From: Scenedesmus sp. ARA3
Taxonomy: Eukaryota > Chlorophyta > Chlorophyceae > Sphaeropleales > Scenedesmaceae
Assembly: GCA_004335835.1 (NCBI GenBank)
Contig: RWJK01001672.1
Location: forward strand, 133,866-197,865
Direction of reading: 5' to 3'
DNA: 64,000 bases
Notes under the pieces: model-generated
The model's input: the letters and a program-made list of their open reading frames with translations, nothing else
The model's database searches: none
What the model was told of the DNA's origin: nothing
Made by a program: the position numbers and the translations under genes
In this document: piece by piece, positions 150 through 62,600 of the stretch
Numbering within the stretch: position 1 is the first letter of the stretch
Layout of the letters: every line of letters starts with the position of its first letter

Positions 150-2785
150 GCGACGAGAGCCGCAAGCAGCTGGGCGCCTTCCTGATGCAGGCGCAGTTCC
201 AGTCGTCGGTGCACAGCAGCAACTTTGTGATGACAGCGGCTGCGCAGAACCTGCTGTGCTTGCAGATGGCTGCCAGTGTGGGCGTGTCGCTGGGTGACCC
301 ATTCATGACCTGGCTGGCAGGTTCCAGCGTGCCGGTGCTACTAGGTGAACACAGCAACAGTAGCCACTGTGACTAGCATTTTGTCCCTGCAGTATGCATG
401 CTGCAGTTGGCATGCTGGTAGCTTGTCTCTGGGGACGTACTTGAGCCTTGCTGTATGCCTTGTGCTGCATTGCTTGGCTTTATTGGTGCAATGTATACTC
501 AATAACTTGCTGCTGCTGTACTGCTTCCTACTGCCTGCAGGTGTAGTGCTCACCCCTTGCGTGCTGTACTGGCTGTGGCCGCCCGCCATCACCAGCACGC
601 CACACGCGCCAGCGGCAGCTAGAGCGCGCTTGCAGGAAATGGGGCCACTGTCAGCAGATGAGGGGGTGATGCTCGGTGCAGTGACGCTGGCTGTGGGGCT
701 GTGGGTGGGTGACACTGCACCGGTGACACGGTGGCTGGTGACACTCTGGCTGGTGACACTGTGGCTGGCGACACTGCACGAGTGACACTGTGTTACAAAC
801 CGCTGGTCTCGTGATATCGTTTGTGACTGACAAGTTGGAGTTATGGCGCTGTCCATGCCGCCAAGCTTGCTGCATATGGACCAGCAAAATCTTAAACATC
901 AAGCATCTGCATATAAACCAGCAAGCACTTTGACAGTTGTTCTCTGCCATCAATCCCTTTGCTTTGCTGGCTGCCTACCTCGCTGGCTGCCTGTCTAATC
1001 TTCCACCCTGCAGGTGTTTGGTGGGCAGCTGGGTGTTGCACCCGTGACAGCTGCCATGTGTGCGCTGGGTGTGCTGCTGGCCAGTGGCGTGCTGAGCTGG
1101 CAGGACTGCCTGCAGTACACACCAGCCTGGGACACACTCATCTGGTTCACAGGTGGGCAACATGCCTCACTATCTGCTTTGCTTCACGATGTTGTGTCAT
1201 GATGGGTTAGGACTGGGGTGATTATTCATTGGGCAATCGCGGGATTGCATGGCAGCCAGACATGTTTTGACAAGGGACGTGGTCTGGCCGTCTGGGACAC
1301 ACTCATCTGGTTCACAGGTGGGATCAGGCATGGGCTCACTGCTCAGCCGGTTATGCATGCTTTCATGGCGTTCGGTCGGATTTGACTTGCGGTTGTTGTC
1401 ATGTTAGCCACACCAGCTGTGCGCGTGCCGGATAGGGGTTGCTGTTGCTTGCAAATGCACGCCAGCCAACAGAAGCAGTTCCTGTTGGCTGTGTTTCAAA
1501 GCCCAGCCAAGCAAGGCTGCAAACCGATCACACCATCCGACAAGCTCACAGAGTACACCACGCCTCTGCTGAACTTTTTCCTCCTGCTGCTGCTGCTGCT
1601 CCTGCTCCTGCTGCCGCCGCAGTGCTCGTGAGCATGGCTGGAGGCCTGCAGTCTCTGGGTGTGATCGACCTGTTCTCAGGCTGGGCAGGGGGCCAGCTGT
1701 CAGGCCTAGACCTGCCCTGGCCGGCGCTGTTTGCTGGGCTGCACCTGCTGTTCTTTGCCATGCACTACATGTTTGCCTCGCAGACGGCGCACGTGGGGGC
1801 GCTGTTTGCTGCCTTCTGCTCGCTGATGATATCGGCAGGTAAGCCTCATCCTGTGTTTGTGGTGTGAGATGAACTGACGGACTTCAACAGTCGGTCACAG
1901 TTCATTGGCGAGTCAGCGCAGTGGTTGTAGCATGCTTCGTCAGCTGTCCATTGAGCTGTGATGCAGCAAGTGCTTGCAGCGCCCAGCAGCCGGTGCATCA
2001 TGCCAGCTTTTATTAAGTCTGCTGTCACCCCTGTTTGCTGATGACCGTAGATGATGAGTACACCGCATTAATGTATGATTCTGCTGTTGTGCGCTGCCTG
2101 CTGTGCTGCCTGCTGTGCTGCCTGCTGTGCTGCCTGCTGTGCTGCCTGCTGTGCTNNNNNNNNNNNNNNNNNNNNNNNNNNNNNNNNNNNNNNNNNNNNN
2201 NNNNNNNNNNNNNNNNNNNNNNNNNNNNNNNNNNNNNNNNNNNNNNNNNTGCCTGCTGTGCTGCCTGCTGTGCTGCTTGCTGTGCTGCCTGCTGTGCTGC
2301 CTGCTGTGCTGCAGGCGTGCCACCTCAGCTGGCTGCCATGTCGCTGGCCTACAATGTGAACCTGTTTGGCAGTCTCACACACTACGCCTCAGGCCAGGCT
2401 GCGGTAAGCGAGGCTGCTGCTGCAGCTGTTCACTTACATCCAGTGGATCTGCCTGCATCATGCTGCAGTGTGTCTCTGGAGCAAGGCAGTCATTTTGGGA
2501 ACCGGTGTTGTTCACTCTAGCAGTGGCGGAGCAAGCCAATCTTGCACAGACTTCTCAGTTTTGAGCTTTGAAATACGCATGCCGCCTCCCTTTGTGTGCT
2601 GACCTGCTCTGGATAAGCACCTGCACATGGCTTTCGTGCGTGTTTTTGTCTTGCAGGTTTACTTTGGCGCCGGCTACCTAAAGACTGAGGACGTGTTCCT
2701 GCAAGGGGCAGCCTGTGCAGCCGCAAACCTGCTGCTGTGGGGCAGCGTGGGCATGCTCTGGTGGAAGGTGCTGGGCTGGTACTGA
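150..2785 (+). CDS. Plastid 2-oxoglutarate/malate translocator (DiT1/DASS family), 3' part
   Basis: Exons 150-344, 541-704, 1014-1152, 1623-1838, 2315-2403 and 2657-2785 join in frame to the last 309 residues of a multi-pass carrier. The 5' part lies outside the window or upstream of base 150, where I could not place an exon. The family (divalent anion:Na+ symporters; plant DiT1) exchanges stromal malate for cytosolic 2-oxoglutarate across the inner plastid envelope and supplies carbon skeletons for ammonia assimilation. Visible signatures are TAAAQNLLCLQ, AWDTLIWFT, HYMFASQTAHVGALF, NLFGSLTHYASGQAAVYFG and the terminal WWKVLGWY. These match the plant DiT1 C-terminal half in order and spacing. 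All introns are GT-AG. The second intron starts with short imperfect repeats (about 705-790) of the donor region. The intron before exon 2315 contains the assembly gap. Confidence 0.9.
1292..1322 (+). repeat. Duplicate of a DiT1 exon 3' edge
   Basis: About 31 bp repeat the 3' end of exon 1014-1152 plus its GT donor (original 1127-1157). Both copies encode GT(L)-type DTLIWFT followed by AG/GTGGG. The copy lies 165 bp downstream in the following intron and has no exon upstream of it, so it is a non-coding half-exon relic carrying a decoy donor. Confidence 0.85.
2091..2314 (+). repeat. CTGTGCTGC-type satellite abutting a 3' splice site
   Basis: A 12-bp unit (TGCCTGCTGTGC) repeats on both sides of the run of N and ends exactly at the acceptor CAG of exon 2315. 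The array occupies the place of the polypyrimidine tract. Its true length is unknown because the assembly breaks inside it. Confidence 0.9.
2156..2249. other. Assembly gap (94 N)
   Basis: A run of N interrupts the 12-bp repeat array. The gap is intronic, so it does not affect the reading frame of the flanking exons. Confidence 0.99.
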
Positions 2786-16475: not shown

Positions 16476-16517
<42 letters not shown>

Positions 16518-19500: not shown

Positions 19501-20721
19501 CAAGTATGCAACAACCTGCTGCCTGGCCCCTGCTGCAGGTTCTGGGTGGGCCAGGAGCTGCTGTTTGACTTCCTGAAGCACTGGGTGGGCCGCGAGGCAC
19601 AGCTGCAGCAGCAGCCGGGCTTCCTGGGCCTGCAGGTGTGATGCTGTTGCTGGCTGGATGCTGTTTACCTGATGGATGCCTTATGAGCAGAGGCAATGCT
19701 GCACATGTGTGTGCACAGCAGAATCCAGCTCCTGTGCCGCATGCGAGCCACTGGCAGGACTATCATCTGGCGTTGCAGCCTACCTTCTGTTGCCCTGCAT
19801 TCATGCTGTGCACATCCTGTGGTGCCTGGTGTCAGCATTCATCTGCTGTCGACATGCTAGCTACCTGCTTCTGCTAATCATAGCACAGCCCATGTGCTGC
19901 ATTCAACCACCCTGCAGGTCACACCAGTGCCTGGTGTGAGCGATGATGGCGGTGTGGATGTGCTGGTGGCCAGCCTATGGGAGAGCATCCCTCAGTACGA
20001 GGCGTGGCGCAACAGCAGCGGGGCCATCGGCAGCCACCTGCCCAGCGGCACCTACCAGTACGTGCCCAAGAAGGGGGAGGGCTTCCCAGGTGGGTGGGGG
20101 TTGTGGCGGCACATCATCCTAAAGGTATGCGTATACATGTGTTGTTGCAGGAAATGCTGTATTGGTGTTGAGTTGTCATCATGCACTGTGTGGTTCCCTG
20201 CGGCGCGCAACACCATGGTGCCAACATGGCAGAGGCTGCTCAGTTTTGCCAGGTTGTTATTGAATATAAGTAACAAATGCAGATTGGCAGCCACCTGCCC
20301 AGCGGAACTTACCAGTACGTGCCCAAGAAGGGGGAGGGCTTCCCAGGTGGGTGGGGTTGAGGCGGCAATGGTTTAACACAGATTGAATCTTTAATAATAT
20401 TCGAGCTGGATTATGCGGTCCGCTCTAGTGTTGTTGCTGTTGCGCAGCGGCATATGACAACATGATCAACACCCTGGGGGGAAGTTTCAGGTCTGCCCTT
20501 TCTGTGCATGTGCAGTGATGCACCTACTGTATCAACGTACAGCTTGATCAGCGCACAACCTACTGTATGCTGTGGTCAGTGCTGCACAGCACCTTGAGCT
20601 GCTGCGCTGCCTGCCTGCTGCGCTGCCTGCCTGCTGCGCTGCCTGCCTGCTGCGCTGCCTGCCTGCAGAGGACTTCATCCCGTTCAGGGACTACGACCAG
20701 GCAGTGAATGCAAAGTACTAG
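15777..20721 (+). CDS. Coiled-coil protein with C-terminal antibiotic-biosynthesis-monooxygenase-like domain
   Basis: Ten exons join to about 780 aa: 15777-16162, 16371-16779, 17093-17256, 17595-17733, 17903-18259, 18431-18807, 19012-19200, 19539-19635, 19918-20089 and 20669-20721. The start at 15777 gives a Ser/Arg-rich, acid-poor leader that looks like a plastid transit peptide. An in-frame ATG at 15651 is the alternative. Residues about 80-660 are heptad-rich with long Gln/Ala/Glu segments (LDEMQQQLDQEQQ, QLQTAELEEQL-like), predicted coiled coil. The last 130 residues (FWVGQELLFDFLKHW, QQQPGFLGLQVTP, VLVASLWESIPQYEAW) have the pattern of the dimeric alpha-beta barrel ABM fold, in which a quoted GFLGL-type strand and a WESIPQYEAW helix are typical. 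Family members include heme-degrading and quinol-oxidising enzymes, but no catalytic residues can be assigned here. The fusion suggests a dimeric, scaffolded protein; this is inference. Confidence 0.8.
20281..20357 (+). repeat. Duplicated 3' half of exon 19918-20089
   Basis: About 75 bp repeat the end of the ABM-domain exon together with its donor (original 20027-20100). Both encode IGSHLPSGTYQYVPKKGEGF followed by CCAG/GTGGG. The copy differs at only a few positions, so it is recent. It has acquired an upstream TGCAG acceptor. Used as an exon (64 nt) it would shift the frame. Confidence 0.9.
20601..20664 (+). repeat. 16-bp CTGCGCTGCCTGCCTG array before the last exon
   Basis: About four tandem units of a 16-bp CT-rich repeat run up to the acceptor of the final exon (20669). 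This is another case of a simple array standing in the polypyrimidine position. Confidence 0.85.
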
Positions 20722-20804: not shown

Positions 20805-20840
<36 letters not shown>

Positions 20841-21576: not shown

Positions 21577-21640
21577 AGCCTGAATGAGTCTGTGCTTGGA
21601 ACCAGACGTTTTGATTCCAAGCACAGACTCAGGTCAGGCT
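21577..21640. repeat. 64-nt hairpin (inverted repeat)
   Basis: The left arm is 21577-21601 and the right arm 21615-21640, around a 13-nt loop. Seventeen contiguous base pairs (21585-21601 with 21615-21631) are followed by a one-against-two bulge and seven more pairs. The structure is intergenic, about 650 bp upstream of the ATP-grasp ATG. Confidence 0.85.
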
Positions 21641-22288: not shown

Positions 22289-25200
22289 ATGTCTGGAGGA
22301 GCTCCCAAGAAGTCGCTGCTGAGTGCAGCACTCAGCGGTGCACCCACGCCAACAACACCAGCAGTTCCCCCCACTGTGGGGCTGTCGGGGTTGGGCTCGC
22401 TCGAGGCCTTCCCCTGCTTGCTGCACGCACCGGACGATGGAACAGCCCTGGATGGCATCGTGGGGGGCATCGAGTCGATGGATCTCAGCAAAGTGCACGT
22501 CGTGGGCTCCGTGCCAACCAACACAATGCTGCCAAACGGCAAGCAGCTGGTGGGTGCGGTTCCAAGTTCTGCATGGTAGTAGCAGCAGCAGCTGTTGCTG
22601 CTACAGCATCTTGCAGGACTGGTCAGGAGCGCGAGCTGAGCTGCTGCTGCTGTTGGTTGCAGGCAGATTACCCTCTAGACCCATACAGGCGCCGTGGGGG
22701 CAAGGAGTGCCTGTCATCAAGCTTCAGCGTCACAAGCCCTATGAGCATGGTGCGTTGCCAAAGTGTGGAAGCAGCCAGAAGTTTGCTCTGCACTTGCTGC
22801 TCTTCAGCAGACGGCAACACCGAACATACAGCTGCTGATGGTCACAGACCGCAACGCGTTTGTGATGGCACCAGCAGGTTGCGTGCGATGCAAGACAGCA
22901 AGCGCAGCGGCGAAACCCTAGTCAGAGCCGGTTGGTTCACACGCAGCTGCCACTGCAGCAGGAAGCGTGTGGCTCTCCCATCAGCACCCTGCTGCCTGCT
23001 GTCTCTCGCCATTCTCTTGATCTCTCCATTCCTGCACGGATCAGCAGCAGGAGGTTTTAACACAAACTCTTGCTGCACTCAAGACTTTAGTAATGCTCAC
23101 CCTTCCGCCGCTGCTGCTGCTGCTGCTGCTGCTCCTGCTGCGCCAGGGTGAGGATAAGATGGGCCGCATGCTGTCTGGCAGCCTGAGCCAGCACTACGAG
23201 GCCGTCATGGGCAGCCTGCCCAAGGGGCTCACCAGCGATGAGCGGCTGCGCGTGAGGCAGAGCGCGCCCATGAGCCCCGCAGTGGGCTCGCTGAAGCAGC
23301 TGCCACAGGTGGGGTTGTGTTACAAATGGGTCCGGGGGTGTTGTTGTTGTAGGTGTGTTGCCCAGGGCGGGCAGCAGCAGCTGTGAGCTCGCTGAAGCAG
23401 CTGCCACAGGTGCGGCTCGCTTGCTGCTGTTCTTTTAATGGTTTTTGCTGGTATGTTGCATAGGTTCGTGCCTCTCAAGGCAGTGCTGCAGGGGCTCGCT
23501 GAAGCAGCTGCCACAGGTGCGGGGTTGCTCTGGCTGTTGTTTCAATGTTGCTGCTGGTTTGTTGTGTGTGGTTTGGTTCCTGATGGCAGACAGGACCAGC
23601 AGTGGGCTCGCTGAAGCAGCTGCCACAAGTGGGGCAATTGGCGCAACTTTTACAGGGCACCAGCAGGCACGCACTGGCAGCTGGCAACTTCTGATGTATG
23701 GATGTTGCATGCTTTGCTGCTGGCTGTCCTGCACACATGACAAGGTGGGCGCGCCCCCCAGTGAGGGCCGCCGGCTGCGCCTCTGTGCACAACTATACAA
23801 TTAAATTGTGCCGCATAACTCACATGTGCATGTGTCGAATGGCTGTGCTGGACATACTCTCAGCTGCGCCGCTGTGTGAAGATATACACATACTGCACTG
23901 CCTAACCCACATGTATCTGTGTCAATGTGTGATGCTGTGTTTACTCTCAGGACAAGGGGGGCACGCACACAATCGAGGGCCGCAATTTATACAGATAGTG
24001 CACCCTGTTACAAACACAGTGTATGTCGGTTTGCCGTGCTGTTTGGCTTTGCAGGACAAGGTGGGCGCGCGCACCATTGAGGGCCGCAAGCTGCGCCGCT
24101 CCGTGCTGAAGGGCAGCGTGATCGCCTTCGTCACGGCAGGCTACAGCGGCAAGCGCTTCATCTTCGAGAAGGCCGCGGAGCTGGGGGTGAGCAGCAGCGG
24201 CAACGGTAGCAGCAGATGCCGCACACAGCGGCGGTGGCAGCAGTGGCGGCGGCGGCAGCATCTAGCGGTGCTAGCAGCAGCTGCAAGCTGTGTTTGCCTC
24301 GTGCTTGCGTGCAGGCTGCAGCATGCTTGACAGCCTATGTATCCTGCTGGTCTCTGGTCACTGCTGCATGCTGACCGGTGTGCTGCCTGCTGCACAACTG
24401 ATGGCATCTCCTGTGCAGGTGAAGTGCATTGTGCTGGACGGCCCTGACAGCTGGGCGCAGCTGATGCAGCGCGAGGGCGTCATCGCCAAGTTCTGCCCCA
24501 TCGACTTCTCCGACGCGGAGCACGTGTTTGAGAACTGCAGGAAGGTGCGCTACGCAGCACCTCTGCTGTCCACGTGTTGGACTGGCAGCATGCATTGATT
24601 ATGGGCTGCAGATGTGGATAGCTGCATCATTACCTGCTGCAATCATACTCGAGCAGTGCAGCAGCCATCACCAGCAGTGTGCACACTGTGCCAAAGGCAC
24701 ACAGTTGTGAGACACACAAACGCTCTTCATATGCTGCTGCAAGCCATCCGCGCAGCACCAGCCGAGCTGGGCGGGCTGGACGCATGCACGCTGTGCACAA
24801 AACGCATTTTGTGACACAACCGCTGTGCATGCACGCATGTTGCCCCAGGCCATCCGCGCAGCATCAGCTTTGCTGGGTGGGCTAGACGCATGCACACTGT
24901 CAAAAAGCAAGGTTTACCACACCTTTCTGCTCCCTAATGCTGGTGCAGGCAATCCGCGCAGCATCAGCCGAGCTGGGTGGGCTCGACGGCATCACCACCT
25001 TCTGCGAGATGGCGGTGCCGCTGGTGGCGCGCCTCACTGAGGCACTGGGGCTGCCTGGCAACACACCAGACGCGGTGGACGCAGCACGCGACAAGGTGCG
25101 CCAAGATTGTGGTTTTAGCCTTATTGCAGCTGAAATTTCAGGTCTCTGTGCTCTTAGTCTAGTTGCGCGACTCACCGAGGCGCTGAGCCTGCCTGGCAAC

Positions 25201-26532: not shown

Positions 26533-26575
<43 letters not shown>

Positions 26576-40775: not shown

Positions 40776-43761
40776 GCTGCTACGCTGCTGCTTTTGTGTG
40801 CTGGAGGGCCGAGAGGCTATATGCGACGGAGTTGGACCAGGCACGAAGCAACTGAATGGTGACCAGCAAACTGCTTGCGCTTCTGGTGACAAAAAGCTTG
40901 ATCTGGTTGAACCTAAGTACTGTTGGCGTGTTGTTCATACAAGGCCCTGGTTCCGTTGGGAACTGCATGAGCACATGCCCCACCTCCCTGTGAGAACCCT
41001 CGATGTTCTTCACAGTGGCCACCCAGGCTTCACTGGTTTGTCCAGCCACGTTGTTTGCTGTATCATGTGAGTTGAATGGACAAAACACGCACTTGATGCT
41101 TGTGCCTTTGGCGAGTCGAGCTTGTGCTGTCTGCAGTACTGCTGAGCTGGCCAGAGTGCCACACAGCTGGTGCCCAGAAGCGCAATGCAGGGTAACCAAC
41201 TGCTCCACTTTGATTCAACATATAAATGATTTACATTCAAATGTCTGTCGCACCAATCATACTCTGCAAAAAGCATGGCCTGTCCAGGGTTCTTCTGCAT
41301 GTAACCCACACGTGACATGCTGAAAGGTTTCCTGCGATCCGTGCAATTTCCAGCAAGAGCCAAGCGCCCTGCAACACACCACACGCTACATCAGCTGAGA
41401 CACCAGCTGGCAGCCTGTTCAACCATACAGAACAGTGGCCTTCAGAACCATCCACTGGCGCGACATAGTGACAGTCTGGCCCAGAACATGCCAATCGTTG
41501 GCCATAAGCTGCACACGACTATGACGACACAACCCCCAATTGTCTACATACATGCCACAACCCAGCACCACACCATGTGAACAGCATGGATGTGACATGT
41601 TTGTACTTGTCAATGACCCCTAAACAGAGACGGGCTGCTGAATGTGCGCAGCAGTCAGCACCAACATACTCATTGCTTGCTGTGAGCTACTGCCACCGCT
41701 GCATACAAGCACTCCTGATAATCCGTGTGAGCTGGACATGAGTCGCCACATGCCTCCACCAGTGGCGGCTACAGTAACAATCAACATATGATGTTAACGT
41801 CTCTATCCCGGAACCCCGCGGACAATCACTACTGCTCGGCACATGAACCACCTCATGAACAATGGCAGCTTCTTCAGCTGCTGTGATGCTGCCATTTTGA
41901 GAGCTGCCATGCTTACACTGGGTGAGCTTTCAAACAGCTAGCAGCAGCACGGCTGCTGCTGGATTGTCAGGACGGCTGTCTGCACAAGCCATCATGAACA
42001 GCACAACACTCTCTATGGTACATGTCATGTTGGTACATGGCATATGTTGGGGTGCTCCAGAGCCTGGTTGCACAAGCAGCTGGTATGCAACACATGCTGT
42101 CTTCAGTTCCATTAAAACACCAGCCGACACCGCTGCCAATTGTCCATGTGGCGTTGACTGTATGGTACAAGCTGCGTTGCGGCAGCTGTCACAACATCTT
42201 GCGAGGTCCTTAGGAACTGCGTGATGGCGCATGATGGCGCTATCACACATGCGCAGTACAGTGCACGCACCTCATAATGCTGCGATGTTGCAGGCATCAT
42301 CCCGACTCATAACAAGCAGTTTCTGCAGCTGCGCAGGATGAGCAGTCAACACACATGCATGTGCATGCGGGACCAATGCCATGCCTGTCATGCTTCCAGT
42401 AGTAACTATGCTTTTGACTACAACTTCTGGCATAGTACAAGCAGACCAGCTGACTCGGATGCTCTCACGAGGTTGCAGCTGGCTGCAGCCAGCATCGAGC
42501 ATTGCACGTTGATTGGCCATTTTGCATGCAGCTTTTTGCACCATGCATGATGTGCACAGCATAAAACACATTTTTGCGGGTGTGGCAGCACTGGTGATAA
42601 ACTGCTTCCTTGCCCTGATGTCCCACAGACCACGCAGCATAAAGGGGGATCTCAACTAAACCCTGAAGCCCGATTGAAACACTAGGGCATGTGCCGGCTC
42701 CTGTGCTGCGCTGCTGACAGAGCCCTGCCACATGCATCACATGCACTGCCTGCATATACAAAAGCCACTTTGGCAAGTTCGAGGTGTAACAAACACGATG
42801 TAACATTATGCAGAGCCTGCATGACGACACATTCTATCAGACTGTTCCCCTCCCTTGCCCCCTCACTGCTCCCATAAACACCTGGAACTCCCACAAATAC
42901 GACACATGCCAAGCTCAGCGTGTGACCATCGCACAAACTGCTTCATTACTCCTGCTCGCCCTGCTCCGGTTGGCCCTCAGCATGCCTCTTGCAGGGCAAC
43001 AGGCCCAGCCTGCTGCGCCTGCTGCCATCGCTGCTACCGGCAGCACCTGCAGCCCTACCGGTCTCACCCACCACCACACCGCCCCCACCATTGCCACCAC
43101 CAGCCGGTGCAGCACCTGCTGCACTGCACCTCGCATCCAGTGCAGCAGCAGCAGCCTCTGCAGCAGCTGCCGTGGCTGGCAGGCAGCTGCTGCTGCCGGC
43201 TGCATGCGCAGGCATGCCGGAGCGCACTTCTCCTGCAGCCAGTGTGTCGGTGAGGCCGCCGAGGCCTCCGCCAGTGAGGGTGCTGTTGGCATTGGTGCTG
43301 CCAGGCAGGTTCAGGTGGCGGTAGCCCTCAATGTTGCTGCAGCAGCAGGACACAGAGTGCGGCAGAATGCAGTGGGACAGCAAGGCAGCAGCAGCAGCAG
43401 CAGCAATGGTGTTGGCATCAGCAAGTGCATGCAGTTGGGCTGGTGGTGCTGCTTGTACTGTGCACATAACCTCAGAGGCTGTCACTGCAGTGCTGTTGTC
43501 GAAGCCGTCACAGAGATGTACTGTGTGCGCGTGCCCTGGGCTTGCTGCATGCTGGTCGAGCGGCGGTGTCACCCCTGGTTTCACCACACCAGCAGCTGCG
43601 GCGGCAGCAATGGTGCCAGCTCGACAAGTGCCTATCCATTTCATAGACCAAAGCCTCACCTGATGTGCCTGCTGACGAAGCCCTGTCGCAGCGCTGCCAT
43701 CACTCGCAGCAGCACAATTGCTAGCAGTGACAGGCGCTCAACGAATTGTAATTTCAGCCGC
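40776..43761. other. Region with unassigned minus-strand frames
   Basis: Several open minus-strand stretches occur (about 40780-41380, 41930-42250, 42270-42655 and an Ala/Gly-rich one at 42946-43659). None matches a family that I recognise and I could not link them by splice sites. They may be exons of a fast-evolving gene, or untranslated sequence downstream of pyruvate decarboxylase and upstream of the proteasome gene. Confidence 0.3.
43659..43702 (-). repeat. Duplicate of the pyruvate decarboxylase C-terminus
   Basis: About 44 bp repeat the end of the last exon including the stop and following bases (original 43762-43805, reading ALRQGFVSRHFR then TGA). The copy reads QGFVSRHIR then TGA and lies just downstream of the true end. 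Confidence 0.88.
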
Positions 43762-46700
43762 TCACCTGAAGTGCCTGCTGACGAAGCCCTGCCTTAGCGC
43801 TGCAGCGCCTGGCGCAGCATCCCGCTTGTCCACCACCACCTCAATGAACACAAAGTGGCCACGCAGCTGCTTGGCGGCAGCAATCGCAGCACACGCCTGC
43901 GCCTCGGTGGTGACCTGGCGGCAGCAGCAGCAGCAGGCATGTGCAACCAAACTGGACACCGAGACGTGTTGTAGAGGTTAGGTTGGGCTGAGCATGTGTG
44001 GGTTTGCACACGCAAATAATGTGCCACATGCTGTTCTAGAAGACTAAAGGTGCACGAACAGGGTGTTGCAGCAGCAAACGGCAGAAGGGCCCCAGGTTTA
44101 AACCCATTGTATGCAGCAGTTGCAGGCCTGCCCACCTTGAAGACCTTGTACTTGCCGCTGCTGTTGCACATGCCCTCAGCCACCTTGCTGTAGTCCCAGC
44201 TGGGCAGGTAGTTGTAGCCTGGCACAGCAGCAACAGCATTCGCGAGTGTCAGGCATGCTGCAATGGATCATAGGCATGTTGCTGCAGTTGGCTGGAGATG
44301 TTACTCAACGTGCTGTACGGGATCAAGCAACACTTCAAAAGCCAGGCACAATGCAGGCTTCGCCACGAACGCCACACGAATACAACCTCAAACTGTACCT
44401 GAGTCAGGAATGGGTGACAGGTAGCGCTCAATCAGGTAGCCGTTATTATTGACCAAGATGATGATGGCATTGCTGCCACAGCGCGCATAGTTGCCGATCT
44501 CGCCAGCCGTCATCTGCAGCCCACCATCGCCCTGGCACACCAGCAGTCGCCGCCCCGCGCGCTGCTGTGCGAGAGAGAACCCTAGGCCGGCGGGCGTGGC
44601 CCAGCCGATGTTTCCTGCAAAGATCTGCAACAGGATCACAAGATCACAGCAGGGGAAGGTCCGGGAGAAAGTTGGTCAGCTGTTGCCCAATGTGCTGCAC
44701 ACCTGGCAGCAGCTGTGTTTGCTGCATAGTTATACGAACCTCAGGCACAAACACAAGTACGCATCAACACAGCGTGACAACAATGACATGGCAGCAGCAC
44801 AGCACGCAAACATTCACCCCATCCCACCTGCAGCTCGTAGGGAGTGCCTTCAGGCAGCTTCATTGTATGTGTGCGCAGCATGCTGTCCGATGTATCCACC
44901 ATGACAGCCATGGCCTCATCCCCCGCCAGCAGCTGCTGCTGCACTTGATCATACACATAGCTCAGTGTGAGGGGCACGCCTGGGGGCGCAGTGAAGTTTG
45001 GATCATGAGGGAAGGCAGGGGGGTCTGAGGGCAGGGCCTTGAAGAGCTGCAGGATGCCGCCGCTGCTGCTGCTGCTGCTGCTGCTGCTAGGCTCCAGGCG
45101 CCTGCAGCAACATGAGGCACAGTCCGGCAGTGGAAAACAGTTCAGCTACCTTCCTCTTTGATGCCGCAAGAAGGTGCAAGGCGGTGCAAGGGCCAGCATT
45201 GTTGCCAGCGGATCAGCGCAGCTGCACAAAGCACCTCCGTTCGACCTGTTTCCGCCATCTGCAGCATATATACAGATGATTAGCCCGCCTACCCTGCCAG
45301 GTGCAGCAGCAGCTCCTCAGTGGCCACCCCGTTGAAGGCATCTGTGTGTCCCACCAGCACGTGCTGCTTGTAGGCCACCACGCTGCGCTGCTCCAGCGCC
45401 TCATCTGGGGGCGACCCAAAGTTCATCTCGTTGAAGTGCGTGCCTGCAGGCACAGGCAGTGTGGCAGCAGCAGATGTGCAGCACACAGTAAGTGTGCAGT
45501 CGGCGCCTACATGACGTACAATGCAGTAGTAGTAGTAGTGCAGTGTGGTGAGTTGAGCTTGAGGCGGCAAGCAAATGAGCGAATGGCAGCTGCAGTGGCA
45601 GTGCAACGGCACCTGTGCATGCCCTCGGGCCAGCAGAAAGACCGAGCATGAGGAGGCTGTCCTGCAAGCACTATGTTGTACAGCTGTTTGTTGCAGCGGC
45701 AGTGAAGCCGGCACGCTGCTCTGGGTGCAGGATGCAAAGAGACGTGCTTGGCTCAGCATGTGCACACGTGTGCGGGAGTCGGTTTGATTTGGTGAGCAGC
45801 CGCTCACCCACGAAGAAGATAGCGTCTGCTGCCTCGTAGCAATGGGCGATGCTGGCTGGGCTGGAGAAGCCGGGGAAGTAGCAGCCGATGAAGGAGGGGT
45901 GGTCCTGCATGGCGGGAGAGTGCAAATGATGCTTCACAAGGGGCTTACACGTACAACACAGACACAAGACAGGGGGCTTATCTGCAGATGCTGACATGTG
46001 TTGGCAGCCGGAGAATCAGCAGCCGATGAAGGAGGGGTGGTCATGGGGTGAACAAGAACAACAAAGTCACAGACACAACGTAATGTATGGTTATGTAAGA
46101 GGACAGAAGCATATGTTGCAGCATGGAGCATTGTGGATAGAAGTATTTGAGACATTTGTGTGCCAGACACAGCATGCCTTGGCTTGCCCACACTTAACAG
46201 CGTAAGCCATCTGGAGCAGTGCCACTCTGTGCTACATGCAGCCACTGCTGCTGCTGCTGCTGCTGCTAAGTAACTGGTACTGACTGATTGGTCAAAGAGA
46301 AATAAACAGGCAGGGGCAAACGAACCCACCTCAGGGAACATGCCCTTAGCATCATGCTGCACCAGCAGCCCCCAGCCCACAGCAGACGTAAACTTGAGCA
46401 GCGCATCCTGGCACGTCCTGCAGCATAGCGCAGCCAGATAACCATAACAGCTCAACATGCTGTATACTGCACTGCATGCGGCAGCACATGCTTGCTGCAA
46501 TAGTCTCCAGCAGTTATCCCAAGCTGAGAGTCGCACAGTGGTGCATGCCAGTAATGGTCTTCTGCAGTAACTACAGCTCATGCTTCCACAAAAAGAAGCA
46601 CCGACAGCAACAGCATGCAAGCAGCTTTACAGTCACAGCCAATGCACAGGCCATAATGCATAGGGGTATAAGTTACATATTGCCCGCACCTGACGCGCCT

Positions 46701-47171
46701 GCCAGCCACAATAAGCGGCATCTTCTTGCCAGCAAAGAAGCGCTGCACCGCTGCGCCTGCGGCCTCTAGTGCTGCTGGGTCGCTGACCGTGCGTGGCAGC
46801 GCAAAGGGCGTCATGAGGGGCGGGCGCAGCCCAAAGGAGGAGTGCGGCTCCATGGGAATGTCCCTGCAGCATAACATGTTATGTTACATATGAATACGTC
46901 ATTCGACATGGCACAACACATTTGGCATCAGATTTGATGATGTTCCAAACATCGAGGCAATGCTTTTATGGGCCACAACGCAGCCACAATGACAAGCGCC
47001 GTTCACACGACAGCTGCACACCTGCACACCTCCAGCAGCACCGGCTTGCGCTGCTTGAGCGCCTTGGTGAGTGCCTTGTCTATGAGGTAGCGCGCATCAG
47101 TGAAGCTGCGCAGGATGGTCTGGTAGCAGGTCACGGGGCGGTAGCAGTCCACCTCCTGGCTCATGTCCTGC

Positions 47172-47209
<38 letters not shown>

Positions 47210-49886: not shown

Positions 49887-52800
49887 TCAATCTTCCAGTA
49901 ATGTCTCCAGCGCCATGGCACTCGGCACCACCTCTCCCTGCTGCGCCGCTGCTGCCGCTGCTGCTGCTGCTGCTGCCTGTTCCACGCTGCTGCCTGCGCC
50001 GCAGTCCAGCCAGATCTTGGCAGCCAGATCTGTTGGGTGGCATGTGACGCGGTTGATGACTGTGCCCACCACCACTGGCACGCGGCTGAACACTTGCAGC
50101 TGCAGACAGAAAGTGCAGGTCAAAGGGCACAGCAGCAGACGTGATGAGCGCACATGCAGGCACAGCAGCAGCAGCAGCAGCAGCAGTGGCAGTAGCAGAT
50201 ACAAGATGAGTGCAAACCTTGGCAGAAGGCCAGCAGCACCTTGCATTGACCTGCCACAATCTGGTGTGGCGTCGCAGGCTGGAAGGTATGACCATATCTC
50301 GCCTTGTACCTGGTCCATGCAAGGCAAGGTATGGTGGTAGGTGGCATACACAAGCATGTAACACACTGCATCAATCCACGACCAGGCTCAAGCCAGCTCC
50401 ACGCACCTGCAGCGGCAGCTGTGCGTGCCCAATATGCTGCCTGTTGCTCACGCCCTGCGGCAGCCGACGCAGCCACTGCTGCAGGTCAAAGTCAGTGCTG
50501 GCAAGCAACAGCTCCGGCGCTAGCTGCTGCTTCCGCTGCTGCAGCTCCTCCTCCTCCTGTACCGCTGCAGCGGGTTCAAGTGAGGCGCTGCTGCTGTCTT
50601 CATCCTGCTCTGGTGAGCTGCTGCTGCTGCTGCTGATGGTGAGGGTCTGGGTTGCCTCCTCGAAAGAGCCTGAGAGGGGCACCCCCATCTGGTCCAGGTA
50701 CATCTTAGTCCTGTTGTTGATCGCGTCATTTAGTACCAACAGCAGCAGCAGCAGCAGCAGCAGCGGCGACGGTCAGTGCTCAAAAAGATGGTAGCACGCA
50801 TATGGATGAAGCAGGTCAAGCACAGGCACGGCAGCACACCCCTCAGGCAACGCACATACAGAATGTGGCAGTTTGTCCTCCCAGCAGCAGCTGGCCAATG
50901 CGCATCAACCAATACAAGGCCAACACAAGCAATACTGATCATCAGCAAGCACTCACTCCTGGCCAAACTCCGGGAGGTAGCCTGTGAAGAACCTGTCCCC
51001 ACCTACTCCTGCCACCACTGCCCACGTCACCACAGGCTGCTGCTTCAACATGATGCACAGGTAGAGCTTGAGGCTCGCATCTGATGCCATGCGCGCAGAG
51101 TATTTGGTGTCGTTGCTGTGCTTGGCGATCCTGCACATCGTCTGCGCATCTGGCAGCTGGTGCTTGGCCAGCAGCGCTGCTGCAGCCGCTTCTTTTGCTG
51201 CATCTACTCCTGCTGCCTCTGCTGCCTCATCATCGCCTGCTGCTGCTGCTGCCGCATCACCAGCGCCGCCTGCTGCTGCTGAGCTTGCTGGTGCAGCAGC
51301 AGCACTGCTGCTGCTGCTGCTGCTGGGTGCTGCAACCACCTCCACTGGCTCAGGCACCTCTGCTGAGTCAGCAATGGGGGCCGTGAGCAGCTCTGCATTG
51401 TCAGGCTGCTGCAGCTGCTGCTGCAGCTCAAGGGCTGCTTGCAGCAGCCGGTGCACGATCACATCAGGGTAGCGCCTGCAACAGTGCGGATAAACAGCGC
51501 AGCAGCAGCAGCAGCACTGTGACCAGATCGCATGACACTATGGGCACGCCCTGCCCTGCAAGAAACTGCAGAAACAGCACTATGATTTTTAGAAACCACA
51601 TCATAACTCCTGTTATATACACCAGATGCGGAACCTTTTCGGTAGAAACAGGCAGAACCAGCAACCCTTGTGCACCCCAGCGCACTGTATGGGGCGGATC
51701 AAAGCGCGTGTCATCAACTCAAGCACACATACACACACACGAAAAGAAAACACACCTGATGGGGCTGGTGAAGAGTGTATACATGTCCATGGCCAGTGCG
51801 TAGTGCTGCCCTCCCCAAAATGCATGCTGCACACTTGCCAGAACACAACACAATAACAAACACCTACCTGATGGGGCTGGTGAAGTGTGTGTACATGTCC
51901 ATGGCCAGTGCGTAGTGCCTCCAAGCTGAGGGCAGCAACGCCTCCCCGGTGCAGAAGTACTGCGCCAGCTGCATGGGCTTGGTGGCCAGCAGCATAATGA
52001 CCTGGCAGCAGCAGCAGCAGCAGCAGCGGCGGCGGCAGCAGCATGATGACACAAAGCGGTATGCGGCGCCAGGGCTGGTGTGTTGTGCCAAACTTGCTGG
52101 CACAAAAAGAACACAGCGCTGACCTTAGAAGGTAAAGATGCATGTACCGCGACACCCCACAGCAGCGCTGCTCATAACAAGTCCAGCTACAATCAACAAC
52201 TGCAGGCTTGCCACGCTGCACCTCGCGTGCCGCATCGTCCTGGCAGGCTGCACGGATGGCGTCGAGGCTGGCAGTGCAACACAGAGCGTCAATTTTAGTT
52301 ACAGCCAACAACTGCAGGCTTGCCGCACCTCGCGTGCCGCGTCGTCCTGGCATGCAGCGCGGATGGCGTTGAGGCTGGCCTGCAGGGCCCCTGCGCTGCT
52401 GCTGTCCACTGTCACGCCCAGCATGGCAGCGGCCGCCTTAAACTCCTCAAGCTTGCGCTCGCTGGGAGGCGGGTGGCGCCTGCAAACGATTGTTGTGACA
52501 GCAATACCAACTAAGGATTCAAATATGTTTCTGGCAATACGTCGATGTCCACGCTCACGCCCAGCATGGCAGCAGCCGCCTTGAACTCCTCAAGCTTGCG
52601 CTCATTGGGCGGCGGGTGGCGCCTGCGGGTTGCATCCAAAAATAGGTGTTTGTGTTTGTGTGTGAGTCATTGTGGGTTTCAACATATGTTTGTACCGGGG
52701 AGTGGCGCATGTGAGTCAAGGCACCATCTGTTGTTTCAGCTGACCACTGTTACGCCCAGCAGGGCAGCTGCAGCAGCCTTGAACTCTTCCAGCTTGTGCT

Positions 52801-55800
52801 CACTGAGCAGCGGGTGGCGCCTGCGGTCATTGTGTATCAGATCACATAATGCGGCTTTTGTAAAATGTGTGGATGGGTATACACACAAATCGCATATCAC
52901 ATTCACATACATGTGTGTCGCAGGTCAGGCAAAGCAACAAGCCCACCTGAGCAGCGCGTGCTTGGGCAAGGCGCGCGCAATGATGCCCGCCACACGCGTA
53001 TTCTCCAGCAGCATGAACTCTTCCACCAAGTGATGTGTCCAGCCTGCACATCACCCTACATGCCTCAAACACCTCAATCCCTCGACTAGGCGCCAGCAAC
53101 AAACCTGAACTTCTGCACACACAGTTCATCAGCCATGACACGCAACATAACCTCAAAACATGCAGCACGCCGGACTCAACCCACCTCAGCAGCGCGCGCT
53201 TGGGGAAGGCGCGCGCAATGATGCCCGCCACGCGCATGTTCGCCAGCAGCATAAACTCCTCCACCAATTAATCAGCCGTGGCCTGCACATCACCCTACAT
53301 GCCTCAAACACCTCAATCCCTCGACTAGGCGCCAGCAACAAACCTAAACTTCTGCACACACAGTTCATCAGCCATGATACACCACATAACTTTGAGCCAT
53401 GCAGCACGCCAAACACAACCCACCTCAGCAGCGCGTGCTTTGGAAAGGCGCGCGCAATGATGCCCGCCACCCTCATATTCGCCAGCAGCATGAACTCTTC
53501 CACCAAGTGATTCGCCTCAGCCTGCACATAGGCGCTGGTGGACACCGGGTTGCCTCCCGTGTCCAGCGCGAAGCTGAGCTTGGTGTTGGTCAGGCGCAGC
53601 GCTCCGGAGCCGAACCGCGCGGAGCGCAGCCGCGTGGCGATGCCATGCAGTGCCATGCAGTCAAAGATGACCTGTTGTGTGTGGAGAAAGTGAGGAAGTA
53701 GCATGCAGCAGGTGCAGCGCACATGTCATCAGTTTGCGTGACCAGCTGGGCAGCGCTCCGGAGCCGAAGCAGGCGGAGCGCAGCCGCGTGGCAAATGCCG
53801 TGCAGCGCCATGCAGTCAAAGATGACCTGCATGAACAGAGGAATTGCGACAAAACAAAGCAGCTTTAAGAAACAGTGTTGGGAGAATTTGGCAAAAGCAC
53901 TGACGAATGCCGTGCAGCGCCAAGTAGTCTGAGGATGACCTGTGTGTGTTTGCGAGGAGCGAAGGCAGAGTGTGCAACGTGTTGGCGGTGGTCAACTTTG
54001 TGACGGCCACGCCACAGTGACAGACGGAACCCAGAATATGACGATATGGCCGCTCCAAACACATATCACCAGCACAGGAGGCTCACCTGCTCCCATGTGA
54101 CGCCGTGGAACAGCTTGACTGGCCACGTCCCCGGGTCAAAGCAGCCCTCAATCATCTGCTGCACCATCGGATAAGCCAGCTTGGCGCAGCTGTTGATGAT
54201 GCTGCGGCCCGCCCACTCCTTGTAGATGTGCCCGTTCTCATCCACCTCCCACACTATGCTGAAGGCGCATTTGGGGTCGCCGGGCTGCAGAGAACAGAGG
54301 TGCTCGCACAGCAGCCGCGGCAGCATCGGCAGCACGCGCTGCACGAGGTAGCTGAAGCACAGGAATAAGACAGTGGCAAAGGTTTGCAGGAACAATAAGC
54401 CAGGGCAGTGGATACAGCACCAGGTGGGTGCAGGGGTAGCAGAGGTTTGCAGGAGAGACGCGCACAAAGGTCAAAAGCAGTGCAGGGCAAAGTGAGGCTG
54501 CATGGACAGCAGCCGCAGCATCATCGGCAGCACGCGCTGCACCAGGTAGCTGCAGGGGTGGCAGAGGTTTGCAGAAGAGACACGCACAGAGGTCATGGCA
54601 GGGCAGGGAGAAGTAAGGCTGCTTGGACGGCAGCACGCGCTGCACCAGGTAGCTGCAGCAGCACAGGGAGGGGCAGGACAGCAATGTATTTGTGGCAAAA
54701 AGGCAGGTGGGGGGATTACATGAAGCAGCACAGGGAAGGGCGTGGACCAAATTTGCAGGAAGTTTGCAGGTAATGAGCACAACCACAGATTGAGGCAGTG
54801 CCAGGCAACATGAAGCGTGCAGCAATCGTCAACCTAACATACCATCCCAGCTCGCTGCTGCTGAGCTGAGTTACAAGCTATACTGCAATGTATGTTATGT
54901 GCTGCACGATGCAGCCTGCACTCACACGCTGGTGCCGCGCTGCTGCGCCTCCTCGTCCAGTGCAGTGCCGGGCTTCACGAAATTCGCCACGTCAGCAATG
55001 TGCACGCCCAGCCGCCACCCTGCCGCACTCACCAGCCAAACAAACAGCCCCAGCATGCAGCTGCTGCTGCCAGCCTTTCGCACGTGCTATCTAAAAAGGC
55101 TCATCAAGCAAGCACAGCACACACCACACAAAAAACACATGGTGCAGCACACAATGAAAAGGGCTTCTAAAGAACTCCGCACTCACACGCTGGTGCCGCG
55201 CTGCTGTGCCTCCTCGTCCAGTGCAGTGCCGGGCTTCACAAAACTCGCCACGTCAGCAATGTGCACGCCCAGCCGCCACCTGCCGCTTCCAAGCGGCTGG
55301 ATGCTCAGCGCGTCATCAAGGTCCCGAGCAGTGATGGGGTCGATGCTGAAGATGCGCCAGGCGCTGAAATCAGCGCGTGTTGCTGCATCGGCTGGCGAGA
55401 TGCTCCAAGGGACCTTGGGCAGGCAGGCGTACGTCTGTGGGGGCAGGAAGGTAAGCAGCCGCAGGAAAAGGACACGGCAGCGGTACAGCCTTGTCAGGCA
55501 CGAGCTGTGCAGATGCAATGTGTGAGGAGGTGAGGGGCTAAGCAAGGTGGCAACGTTTAGTCTCGAGCAGTGATGGGGTCGATGCTGAAGATGCGCCAGG
55601 CGCTGAAATCAGCACGTGTCACTGCGTCAGCTGAGGAGATGCTCCAGGGCACCTTGGGCAGGCAGGCGTACGTCTGCGCAGGCAGCAAGGTAGGCAACGG
55701 CAGGAAAGGGACACGGCAGCAAGTCCAGCTCTGTCACACATGACCTGTGTACAGACCTGTTCTTGTACCCCTCTCTGACCAGCAGCGCAAACTCACAGCC

Positions 55801-57733
55801 CAGATATGAGCACTGCAAGATGCCGATAGCCTCACCTCCAGGCAGAAGTCCTCCTCCCTGATTCCTTCACCCGCCAGCAGTGCAGCAGTGCCCGCCTCAA
55901 TGTCACCCGTGGGGCCCAGGCTGGTGCGCACGCTGACCAGGGGGAAGGCGCTGCCGGCTGGCCACTGGCTGATGGCTGCAGCCACAAAGGTGCGGCTGGT
56001 GAGGTCGGTGGCGGCTGCCTCAGCCCTGCAGAGGCACGAAAAGTTGCATGAAAGATGCAGATGAGATGATTCTGCTTGTCACCTGCACATTTCAAGCTTA
56101 GGATTGAGTGCCACAATAGCTGCGGCTGGCGAGGTTGCTGGAGCACTCAGGCCCAAAGGATATAGAACGGATGCATAACCGCAGAGCAGGCACTGCTGCT
56201 CATCAGCATGTGATGCAGGGATATGATGGTTGAGTGGCAAGCTGGCAGAGAAGGCAAGTTGTAAGGCAGGGGCAGGTGGTGGCTGTGGTAGTCAAGCTGC
56301 ACGAAATGTGGGTGGTAACCAGGGCATGGCTGCTCGTGAAACACCGTCGCAGCCTGGTGCTGCAGCTGCTTGCGCCAACATGCAGCTGCGTATGTCTGAG
56401 CAGAAAAACGACTGCAGCCCACCTTAGCTCCTCCGGCAGCTCCGCCACTGCTCCAGGGGGCAGCAGCCCCTTGGGCAGGCGGGGGTCCAGCGGCACCAGC
56501 ATCAGGCAGCCCTCATATGCACCAGATGCCAGCGCTGCCGCTGCAGCAGCAGCGGGCGGCGGCAGCGCTGCTGAGCTGCTGCTGCCACCTGCTGCTGCTG
56601 CTCCTGCCATGGCAGCTGCAGGGGTGAGCAGCACTCCTACGATGGCCTCCCTGCGGGGTGAGGGCTCCAGGACTGCCACGACTTTGCCTGAGGCATGGAA
56701 AATTGCAGGAGAGTGTGTGAAAACAGGAGCATAAGCGTTCAAGAGACAAGGAAAAGCACGTGTGCAATGCAGGCAGCGACAGCACGATCTATACTTACTA
56801 CTTTGCAACAGAGGCAGGCATACATGTATAAAAAAAGGGAAAAAAGGGTGTGGTGCCACGCTCTGCTCTTGAGGTGCACTGATGAGCTACACTTCACCAT
56901 CTCACGTGCCATGCGCTGCAGCGTGCTGTGGCTCAGGCACCCAAATTGCAAGCGATGTACATGCCATGTCAGCGCTGCACCAAGCACCATCAACAATGCA
57001 CACGAAAGTACATCCTGTCAAACCCCAAAAATCAAAGCAAGCGCCTTAGATCACACCTGTGACGCGCATGTCTGGCCTTGCACGCAGCGCATCTTCAATC
57101 ACTTTTAGCGCGGCCTCTGTCCCGCCCGCAACAGTCCAGGGCGACTGCGCCGCTGCCACGCCAGCGTCATCATTTGCTGCTATTGCCATGTTGGCTAGCT
57201 CCTCTGCCAGGGCCAGGGGGTCTACCTTGCCTTCTGGCAGCAGCCCTGCCTCTGCCAGCTGTGTGCGCAGCAGCAGGGTTGAAGGCACGAATAAACACAG
57301 CAAAAACACAGTAAGATTGAGTCAAAAATAGCAGGGTTTGATACATACAAACAGCAGCCAGCTCCTCTGCCAGGGCCAGGGGGTCTGCCTTGCCCTCCTG
57401 CAGCAGCCCTGCCCCGGCCAGCTGTGTGCACAGCAAGGACAACAGCAGGCTTGCCTTTGACAGATTGCGCCCGTTATCAACTGCAAGTGTTCCCGACCTT
57501 CATCATGCACAGCACCTGCTCCACAGCCTGCACCTCCGCCCAATGATGTTAAACACAGCATTGTTGAAAAAGATCACCAGCAGATGAAAAAGTATGTGTT
57601 TTACGTCAGACGTATGAACTATATACCCTTTCAATTATGTTCCAAGGCGCACCTTCTCCCGCTCCTTGTACACCACGAACCAGTCTTTGAGCTTGAAGGC
57701 CAGCACCACCACCTCATCGCCCTCAACAGCCCT

Positions 57734-57771
<38 letters not shown>

Positions 57772-59615: not shown

Positions 59616-62600
59616 ATGACCGCTCACACCATGCATCAGCTGTCAACAGGGCGTGTTGGGGCGCTAGTGTGTCCGCATGTAGCGATACTGGCTTCCAGGC
59701 CAAAGCCGAGCTTCCGGCCGGTACTATGCAGAGGGCTTCCTGGTTTCGGTTCCTCTGGCTTACCCAAGGCCACATCCAACGAGTGGCAGGTGCCTTCAAA
59801 TCTACTGCCCAGCAGGAGCCCCGGATCTGCCGAGGTGGGTACTTTGGCGGGGTCCTTTTGCTGACTCGGCTAGGGTCATGTCACAGGTTGGTTTGGCGAA
59901 GGGTGTGCAAGCGACACGTGACTGTTGTGGTAGCTCAGCTCCTCGAAACGCTGTCGTTCCTGCTGCCTGCAGGGCTCTCCAAGCAGCAGCATAGACGGCA
60001 GCACCAACAGCAGCAGCAGAAGCAGCAGCAAGAGCACTGTTTACACAGTGCGCCTCACTACTAGCTGGGACCGTGGTGCCGCGCTTTCAGAGCCAATGGC
60101 AGGCGTCAACGTGTGCTTGATCAGCAAGGATGGCAGCGCTGTGCTGCACCGCATTGCGCCAGTGAATGATCCAAGGGACAACCTGCAGGTCATGCAGCAG
60201 ATTTGCAGCGTGAGTGGGCCGCTTGCAGGTGCCTGAGTACACATGCGAACTTGCGGCAGCATGCTGTGTCGCTGTGTGTGGCTCGAGGGGTCATTTCTTG
60301 TTGCAGCCCCTCAGTGCCTGCAGGTCATTTGAACTTGCACAGTGTCTAAGAGCAGCAGCGACTACCACTGCAGTGTGTACATGCACCACCTCTGGCAGTT
60401 TGCTGCTGTGCACCAATAGCACTGCTCCAGCTGCTCCCAGCTTGTACTTGATGTAACATGCCATACAATGTCCTGCTGCTGTGATGTGCTGCTGCAGTTG
60501 GTTGGTGAGGAGTCAGGCGCTGACTGCTCTTCTGTGAGCAGCATGGATGCACCAGCCTGGCCAGCAGGCAAGGAGCCAGTCGCAAAGCTGCGGTTCCAGG
60601 TGCGTGCGTATATGCAGCCACACAGCAGCGTGCTGTATCCTTAGCTATGCGTATATGCAGCCACGCAGCAGCGTGCTGTATCCTTAGCTGTGCGTATATG
60701 CAGCCACGCAGCAGCGTGCTGTATCCTTAGCTGTGCGTATATGCAGCCACACAGCAGCGTGCTGTATCCTTAGCTGTGCGTGTATGCAGCCACGCAGCAG
60801 CGTGCTGTATCCTTAGCTGTGCGTATATGCAGCCACACAGCAGCTTGCTGTATCCTTAGCATCTGCGGTACTACCCTGCTCTGCATGGCTTGCACCTTTC
60901 GCGCTTGTCGAGGTATGTGCGGTGCCCATGGCACAGCTGCCAAAGCGTGTAAGCAGTATGCTCTCTGGGAACACAGACATGCCGGGTCCCTGCCGTTGCA
61001 TCTGCTGCGTAACATGCTGGTTCTCTGCGTTGCATCTGCTTTGCATCTGCTCCGTAACTCCTTTGCTTTTGCATCTGTTACACTGCAGCTGCCGCAGGGG
61101 GTTGCAGCGCACGAGGTTCGCTTCGTATCTGCATCTTGTGCTGGTCCTGCTTGCATGTCGAATCTCATAACTTGAACCTGCTCTGTCGTGCAAATGCATT
61201 TGCAGGAGGGCGCAGTCGATGAGGTCAGCTTTGTTGCACAGGAGCTGGGTGACCTTGCAGCAATCATGCTGGCCCCAGAGGGCGGCAGCTGGATGTGCAA
61301 CGAGGTGGACGTGTCAAGCAGCCGCACCAGCCACACAGACAGGTGAGCAATTGTGGGAGAAGATACGATTCAGCCAGCAACAGTTGTTGTATGGTAGCAC
61401 CAACATGTGTGCAACGAGGTGGACGTGTGAAGCAGCCGCACCAGCCACACAGACAGGTGAGCAAGTGTGGGAGAAGATGCAGTTCAGCCAGCAACAGATG
61501 TTCTGTGATAGCACAAACATGTGTGCGAGAATATGGACGTGCAGGCAGCCACACAGGCAGGTGCGCTTGCTGACTGCTGATCTTCTGGCTCCTCGCGCTG
61601 CTGCCTCACAGCTTCCCCATTACTTCAATTCCGTTTCCTGCGCAATGCTCTGCTTTTCTGTTGGTGTTATCCGTTCTGCTGGCATCTGCGCAGCAGCAGC
61701 AATACACCAGCATGCTCTGGCTGGTCTGTTTTCCCACACAGCAGCATGTGGTGTTGTTGGGGTGCTTGATTACTACCGATATGAGTGCTGGGTTGGCTGC
61801 TTGCTTGCAGGTTTGTGTGCCGCAAGCGCCTGGGTGGGCGCAAGGGCGAGCCGGCAGCATACCTCACGCCTGTGCCACCAGATGCGGTCGTGTATGGCTC
61901 GGGAGAGACAGCACGTGTCATTACCAAGGTGTGTGCAAGGATGTGGCATGAATGTGTCATTGTTGGCCATAGCAGCAGCTGTAGTGGCAGCAGCAGCATT
62001 TGCAGCAGCAGCAGCAGCATGCCATGATTGTGCAGGATAGCAAGGTGCTTGGCGTGCTTTTGGGACACCAGCGAAACGCAAGCTTATTGTGCGATAGTTG
62101 GAGCTTGCCCTGACGTTGTCAGCGGTGCACGGTCTGCGTCAGGGCAGCTCTATTTGGCTTTGGGCAAGCTGTCAGACAGCATGCGCTTTCTGTTCTCGAT
62201 GTATCTTTTATTATAAGCATTGCTGCTTGTTTCCTCATGCTACCTGCTGCCCTCTGCACACCTGGCGGCGCTGCTGCGGACAACAGGAGCAGGCAGCCGT
62301 GCTGCAGGCAATGAGCCTCGCAGACTACTCAGCGCTCAAGTCACGGCTGCTGATCACCACAGCGCTACTCACGCTAGGCGGCAGCGGAGTAGCAGCAGTC
62401 GCAAGCGGCGTTGAAGCAGCTGTCCCCTTTGCAATTGGAGGCATGGCTGGGCTGCTGTACCAGCTGCTGCTGCAGCTGGGAGCGGATGCCGCAGTTGCTA
62501 CTGCAGCATCTCAGTCGGATGCAGCGCAGCCGGGCAGGGCTACTGGATCAGCAGCAGCAGCAGCAGGTGATGCGCAGCAGGGCTTCCAGGCGCGTATGCT

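Follow-up and report, generated by a model that had tools for sequence, protein, structure and literature searches.

Introns in a 64-kb stretch of the Scenedesmus sp. ARA3 genome (hereafter the window) contain segments that resemble one end of an adjoining exon together with its splice site. Such half-exon copies raise the question of how they arise, whether they are truly tied to splice junctions, and what has governed their sequences since. We analysed the window (56.6% GC), part of a contig of 338 kb, together with 15 further stretches of the same assembly (87.27 Mb in 1567 contigs), 246,213 bases without N in total.

Genome sample and gene models

Exon edges were taken from the models of a purpose-written gene finder, self-trained on the sampled sequence; its coding fraction was still climbing at the final training round, and weak predicted exons are doubtful. 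Outside the window the gene finder is the sole source of the models. The nine models of the window include that of ribosomal protein eS4, 98% identical to a protein of Scenedesmus sp. NREL 46B-D3, and that of an RNB exoribonuclease, which over 83% of its length is 98% identical to a protein of Tetradesmus obliquus. These identities place the alga within the Scenedesmaceae, close to T. obliquus. Alignment of the eS4 model with the relative's protein P0002 gave six exons, five of them identical and one sharing one edge; for the RNB model, protein P0121 gave 14 exons (eight identical, six sharing one edge) and P0122 gave 16 (seven identical, seven sharing one edge and two unmatched). Eight of the ten copy-bearing edges in these two genes match P0002 or P0121 exactly, and two RNB edges were misplaced, by 34 and 16 bases (model 52445, corrected to 52479, and 53408, corrected to 53424). 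Other window models are backed by Pfam domains (Na/sulphate symporter, carboxypeptidase M14, DUF2358, ATP-grasp, proteasome, TPP enzyme and DUF7755).

The gene finder itself called 42 short exons within copies of longer exons, and the relocation test therefore used a cleaned set, reduced from 392 to 350 by discarding any exon no longer than 110 bases that falls within such a copy. Pairs of repeats were used at shifts of up to 700 bases (up to 400 in the relocation and non-exonic-part tests). The copy set was drawn from pairs with at least 24 exon bases and an inner end in an exon, and comprises copies whose junction could be placed. A coding tandem repeat fills the initial 4.3 kb of stretch C1530; it was left out of the count of repeat loci, the ungapped scan, the copy set, the relocation and non-exonic-part tests, and the counts derived from these.

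Half-exon copies in the window and elsewhere

When the window was compared with itself by blastn (E≤1e-4), 43 pairs were found: 40 local direct repeats, one long-range pair and two self-inverted, palindromic stretches (21577-21640 and 31581-31657). With shifts limited to 1500 bases, the window yields 40 direct-repeat pairs and the other 15 stretches together 254, with no matches at all in a reversed-sequence control of all 16 sequences. A further 98 direct pairs have larger shifts, and 83 of these belong to the one predicted coding repeat of C1530 (its units about 85-95% alike, in C1530 20001-30000). Downstream of this repeat lies a gene with many copies at its later exons. With that repeat set aside, the 16 sequences hold 102 loci of local direct repeats with shifts of up to 700 bases.

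Because a lack of short shifts in blastn could be an artefact of the main diagonal, an ungapped diagonal scan was also run. It gave 25 segments below a shift of 50 bases, five at 50-90 and eight at 90-100, then 17-29 segments per ten bases between 100 and 150, with more rises at 200-280 and 350-450.

Across the whole sample there are 148 half-exon copies at 91 of 622 predicted splice edges (40 acceptor, 51 donor), a frequency of about one edge in seven. Fifty-five edges have one copy, 19 have two, 15 have three and two have five, so that 36 of the 91 bear two or more, and one array holds about ten. The distribution is uneven, with 12 copy-bearing edges in C890 and 11 in C1370 and none in C410, C490 or C650. 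These results confirm that the half-exon copies are real and that they extend beyond the window. A sequence-only reading had counted about twenty duplicated junction segments here, and our own models agree, with 32 copies at 21 edges of 17 exons. Where it named eight of ten genes, copies fall in seven of our nine models, one of them doubtful, since the two 'copies' at predicted exon 13906-13971 are a 33-bp minisatellite (13730-13938) that adjoins this weak exon and was scored as two exon-edge copies. The other copies of the window are as follows.

1292..1322, + strand: donor (3′ edge) copy of exon 1014-1152; original 1127-1157, 31/31 identical
20283..20367, + strand: 3′ edge copy of exon 19918-20089; 94% over 86 bases
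23380..23634, + strand: three 3′ edge copies of exon 23147-23308
23736..23985 (23736-23784 and 23948-23985), + strand: two acceptor (5′ edge) copies of exon 24055-24186
24680..24888, + strand: two 5′ edge copies upstream of exon 24949-25095
25159..25512, + strand: 3′ edge of exon 24949-25095 plus intron, in three tandem units of 138-139 bases, with differences nearly all at third positions
27697..27812, + strand: 5′ edge tandem copy of exon 27891-27996
31283-31332, 31385-31435 and 31504-31555, − strand: three 5′ edge copies of eS4 exon 30982-31181 (confirmed by P0002)
43655..43697, − strand: 3′ edge copy of exon 43766-43914 (TPP enzyme gene)
46006..46045, − strand: 5′ edge copy of exon 45808-45904; stop present, AG lost
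51731..51806, − strand: 3′ edge copy of RNB exon 51868-52001
52185..52272, − strand: 3′ edge copy of RNB exon 52329-52479
52546-52628 and 52741-52826, − strand: two 5′ edge copies of RNB exon 52329-52479
52937..53290, − strand: 3′ edge copies (238-base unit) of RNB exon 53424-53671
53750..53829, − strand: 5′ edge copy of RNB exon 53424-53671
54506-54555 and 54628-54660, − strand: two 5′ edge copies of RNB exon 54087-54351
54918..55026, − strand: 3′ edge copy of RNB exon 55187-55434; 96% over 109 bases, one base inserted
55560..55749, − strand: 5′ edge copy of RNB exon 55187-55434
57357..57435, − strand: 5′ edge copy of RNB exon 57057-57258
61408..61566, + strand: 3′ edge tandem copy of exon 61206-61342; stop present

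The description of the copies as tandem holds clearly for some of them only. In a head-to-tail test of 147 of the 148 copies (one was dropped from the flank and spacing analysis for its short flank), the intron flank is recognizably common in 61, not in 69 and unclear in 17. Repeats without a predicted exon also occur, such as a 43-base unit present six times, about 95% alike, at window positions 60604-60860, and about six units of 181-188 bases at roughly 5656-6814 of the C1210 stretch 30001-40000. The sole gap in the window, 94 N at 2156-2249, lies within an array of a 12-base unit.

Duplications are biased to splice junctions

An exon edge is included in 95 of 116 non-redundant pairs, compared with 49.9 ± 5.0 (maximum 66 in 500 runs) when positions are relocated; the remaining pairs are 15 wholly non-exonic and six other, where 48.8 and 17.3 are expected. 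Nine of the 15 wholly non-exonic pairs proved, on reading the list, to be two copies paired with each other. The junction bias thus survives, in this sample, a position-relocation test named beforehand. The accompanying 'rule', that copies of a 5′ edge lie in the preceding intron and those of a 3′ edge in the following one, follows of necessity whenever a duplicated segment crosses a junction: the geometry puts the copies on the intron side, and the bias to junctions does not follow from it.

The exon parts of pairs are better kept than the intron parts, which favours the detection of junction pairs. Tandem duplications placed uniformly could therefore appear biased, through slow exon decay and the purging of those internal to exons. 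This we consider very unlikely, because the excess stays when the comparison is restricted to pairs with a well-preserved non-exonic part of at least 35 bases. Where that part is at least 85% identical, 25 pairs include exon or copy sequence and four do not (36 and six at ≥80%, 11 and two at ≥90%), against about 1 to 1 expected, an approximate expectation in that the relocation behind it covers exon edges only. Slower decay of exons alone does not, then, make the bias. The earlier proposal that selection removes only wholly exonic duplications is likewise insufficient, as wholly intronic ones, which should be tolerated, are too few.

Spacing between exon and copy is also restricted. The intron part is shorter than 40 bases in only one of 91 nearest copies, where uniform breakpoints would give 32.4, a limit that may reflect selection. 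A single fixed period was considered as a cause and rejected, the exon and intron parts of the unit being uncorrelated (0.08 and −0.02). Introns with copies have a median length of 482 bases (n=70) and those without copies 258 (n=239), and the stretches from an exon edge to its farthest copy amount to 17.4% of intron bases. The copies had been put forward as a main source of intron growth; they do contribute, to a moderate degree.

Splice sites of the copies

As the sequence-only reading had noted, most copies keep their AG or GT (127 of 148; GT in 65 of 75 on the donor side and AG in 62 of 73 on the acceptor side). Those that do so score like real sites, with medians of 7.0 and 7.0 for donors and 5.3 and 5.8 for acceptors, whereas random intron sites score near 0.

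To be included as an exon, a half-exon needs a completing site on its other side, and such sites are depleted relative to distance-matched windows in copy-free introns. At a score of at least 3, five of 73 acceptor-side copies have a completing donor (control 21.9%, P 0.0009), and 19 of 75 donor-side copies have a completing acceptor (control 43.2%, P 0.0016). With the cut-off at 2 the donors remain depleted (13 of 73, control 34.7%, P 0.002) and the acceptors are not clearly so (34 of 75, control 56%, P 0.064). The suggestion that the copies feed alternative splicing as exons is thus not supported, complementary sites being rarer than in the control and not enriched, and the idea that they are mini-exons was dropped for the same reason. 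None of the three protein alignments of eS4 and RNB uses a copy as an exon. The depletion probably reflects selection against completed exons, in which case the copies would still be recognized by the spliceosome.

Seamless splicing at AGGT was rejected as well. Only 34 of 148 pairs would allow GT..AG joining in matched phase within the repeat, and AGGT is about as frequent per base inside the duplicated exon parts (0.0032) as outside (0.0029). Distances from junction to junction are not concentrated at multiples of three (50, 43 and 55 pairs in the three classes).

Coding-like divergence

Exons and their copies differ at 5.7, 4.5 and 19.0% of codon positions 1, 2 and 3 respectively. The ratio of positions 1-2 to position 3 is 0.27 (0.22-0.33 by bootstrap over edges), and a constrained exon with a neutral copy would predict a ratio near 0.5. 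Copies compared with each other (24 pairs, six of them from one C570 array beside a 4-kb predicted exon) show the same pattern, with 6.0, 5.2 and 18.6% at the three positions and 17.9% in the intron. In the 60 pairs with aligned intron, the intron differs by 17.7% and third positions by 21.0%, and positions 1-2 differ at a quarter of the intron rate (0.19-0.32). Third-position GC is 77.9% in copies, 80.1% in exons and 54.7% in introns. Base context does not lie behind the third-position bias (524 changes, 155 expected).

The ratio is stable across subsets: 0.25 where the intron flank is common and 0.29 where it is not, 0.24 on the acceptor and 0.30 on the donor side, 0.25 in the window and 0.27 outside it, 0.35 for single and 0.23 for multiple copies, and 0.28 for the 140 copies left once the minisatellite edge and all predicted exons longer than 1 kb are set aside. 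It is nevertheless somewhat heterogeneous (P 0.02), and in the 30 pairs lowest in third-position divergence, a bin chosen on position 3 itself, it reaches 1.21. Forty-seven of the 148 copies are broken by a stop, a frameshift or a lost dinucleotide. The picture of simple decaying relics is not supported all the same, as most of the differences fall at third codon positions and the retained splice sites are as strong as real ones.

Changes private to one member were sorted in 36 triplets, one of them without sites. Those private to the nearest copy fall 18, 17 and 59 at the three codon positions (ratio 0.30, 0.19-0.47), a distribution best fitted by constraint on the copy itself; changes private to the exon are far more constrained than these. 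At third positions the nearest copies have 37 private GC-to-AT and eight AT-to-GC changes, compared with 25 and 18 in exons.

A direct explanation would be that the copies are functional in place, their live sites and coding flanks entering minor isoforms under purifying selection. The third-position bias of the copies' private changes, which lack the GC preference of exons, and the strength of the retained sites are consistent with this. The depleted completing sites, the indifference to multiples of three, the scarcity of phase-matched joins, the broken copies and the eS4 and RNB alignments, which use no copy, all speak against it, and we regard it as improbable. Equally doubtful, in our opinion, is the converse proposal that the copies are neutral and slow and that live edges change several times faster at silent sites, for example through error-prone duplication. 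An edge about four times faster fits the exon-copy, copy-copy and triplet rates together, and the intron beside it differs much as third positions do and has many indels. The youngest copy, if the nearest is the youngest (an assumed age order), should however have private changes spread evenly over codon positions, contrary to the counts above.

The assembly offers another possibility, namely that diverged haplotypes were placed in series at exon ends and that both copies are real exons, belonging to different chromosomes. Both members of a pair do resemble a coding exon while their introns differ, the contigs contain N gaps, and relatives are described as diploid or as having a doubled assembly (PMC7955037, PMC5552973). 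Against this are the edges with two or more copies, the array of about ten, the 17 of 55 single copies that are broken, and the much stronger constraint on exon-private than on copy-private changes. Edges with three or more copies, and broken copies, mean that two serial haplotypes cannot be the whole cause. Some single-copy cases could be of this kind, but as a general account it is a long shot.

The explanation that we place first, with a probability of only about 0.35, is recurrent local duplication across junctions, filtered by splicing, with copies that exchange sequence with live exon ends. Segments of about 90-270 bases spanning one splice junction would be duplicated beside themselves again and again, so that an exon end and its splice site are copied, sometimes repeatedly, into the adjoining intron. 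A copy would persist only where splicing stays workable, which would require that at least some 40 bases of intron separate it from the exon and that no completing splice site adjoin it. Over the history of the lineage, copies and live ends would recombine, and a present copy may thus have served for long periods as the coding end of a live exon.

Exchange itself was not observed, and several results count against this step. Six exon queries of the whole assembly revealed no second allele among the best candidates scored. Among these candidates the extra matches adjoin the query's own exon (one of the six had no local copy to find), save for one weak place on C1155 (G000:C1155:4992-5039), a 48-base match of 85% to exon 24949-25095 and the sole match outside its own locus. 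Alternate haplotypes in a relative were recognized at >95% identity (PMC7955037), which leaves little silent divergence for exchange to import. The AT bias of copy-private changes looks to have been made after exon use ended, and the ratio of 1.21 in the least-diverged pairs is as neutral copies would give. We rank exchange first, at low confidence, because we see no route by which a copy's peptide could be used. Exchange, minor isoforms and fast silent edges all account for some of the observations, and all face a result that speaks against them.

Relationship to known duplications

Partial exon duplications are known as single cases. In tandem duplicated and mutually exclusive exons the entire exon is present, with a splice site at either end; the copies here likewise retain coding sense, but their completing sites are depleted and none is used in the eS4 and RNB alignments. 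Intronic minisatellites are head-to-tail arrays, as are some of ours with up to about ten units, and differ in having neither the exon-edge bias, nor the scarcity of shifts between 50 and 90 bases, nor the coding-like differences.

Intron gain by tandem duplication of an AGGT-bearing exon segment, as outlined in PMC4974935 and PMC3443670, is also a local duplication of exon sequence with splice sites, but there the new intron forms inside the exon, whereas here the copies are intronic and few have a phase-matched join. Tandem-repeat genes such as polyubiquitin, with dual-specific splice sites, carry splice-site sequence in each unit as well (PMC10809524); in that account whole coding units are spliced in variable number, and here the units are half-exons that lack a completing site. 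Introner elements, as summarized in PMC3879977, resemble the copies in their large contribution to intron content, but similar elements are dispersed, whereas each copy here is specific to its own exon, the weak C1155 place being the one exception among the best candidates scored. Searches of the open-access literature listed no paper whose title or abstract describes such half-exon copies.

Since the copies lack the tested defining features of AGGT intron gain, of introners and of cassette exons, we class them as a variant of partial tandem duplication, one that behaves as if screened by splicing and that evolves in an unexplained way. More speculative than our preferred explanation is the idea that the introns of this alga hold many thousands of half-exons that are splice-competent, constrained in amino acid sequence and yet incomplete, a class of constrained intronic sequence not known to us from elsewhere.

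Implications

A genome with copies at about one splice edge in seven would offer a means of measuring how junction duplications arise, which of them the spliceosome tolerates and how introns lengthen through them. The copies mislead gene predictors, as the short exons falsely called here illustrate. Their coding-like evolution contradicts a simple picture of debris and needs explaining.
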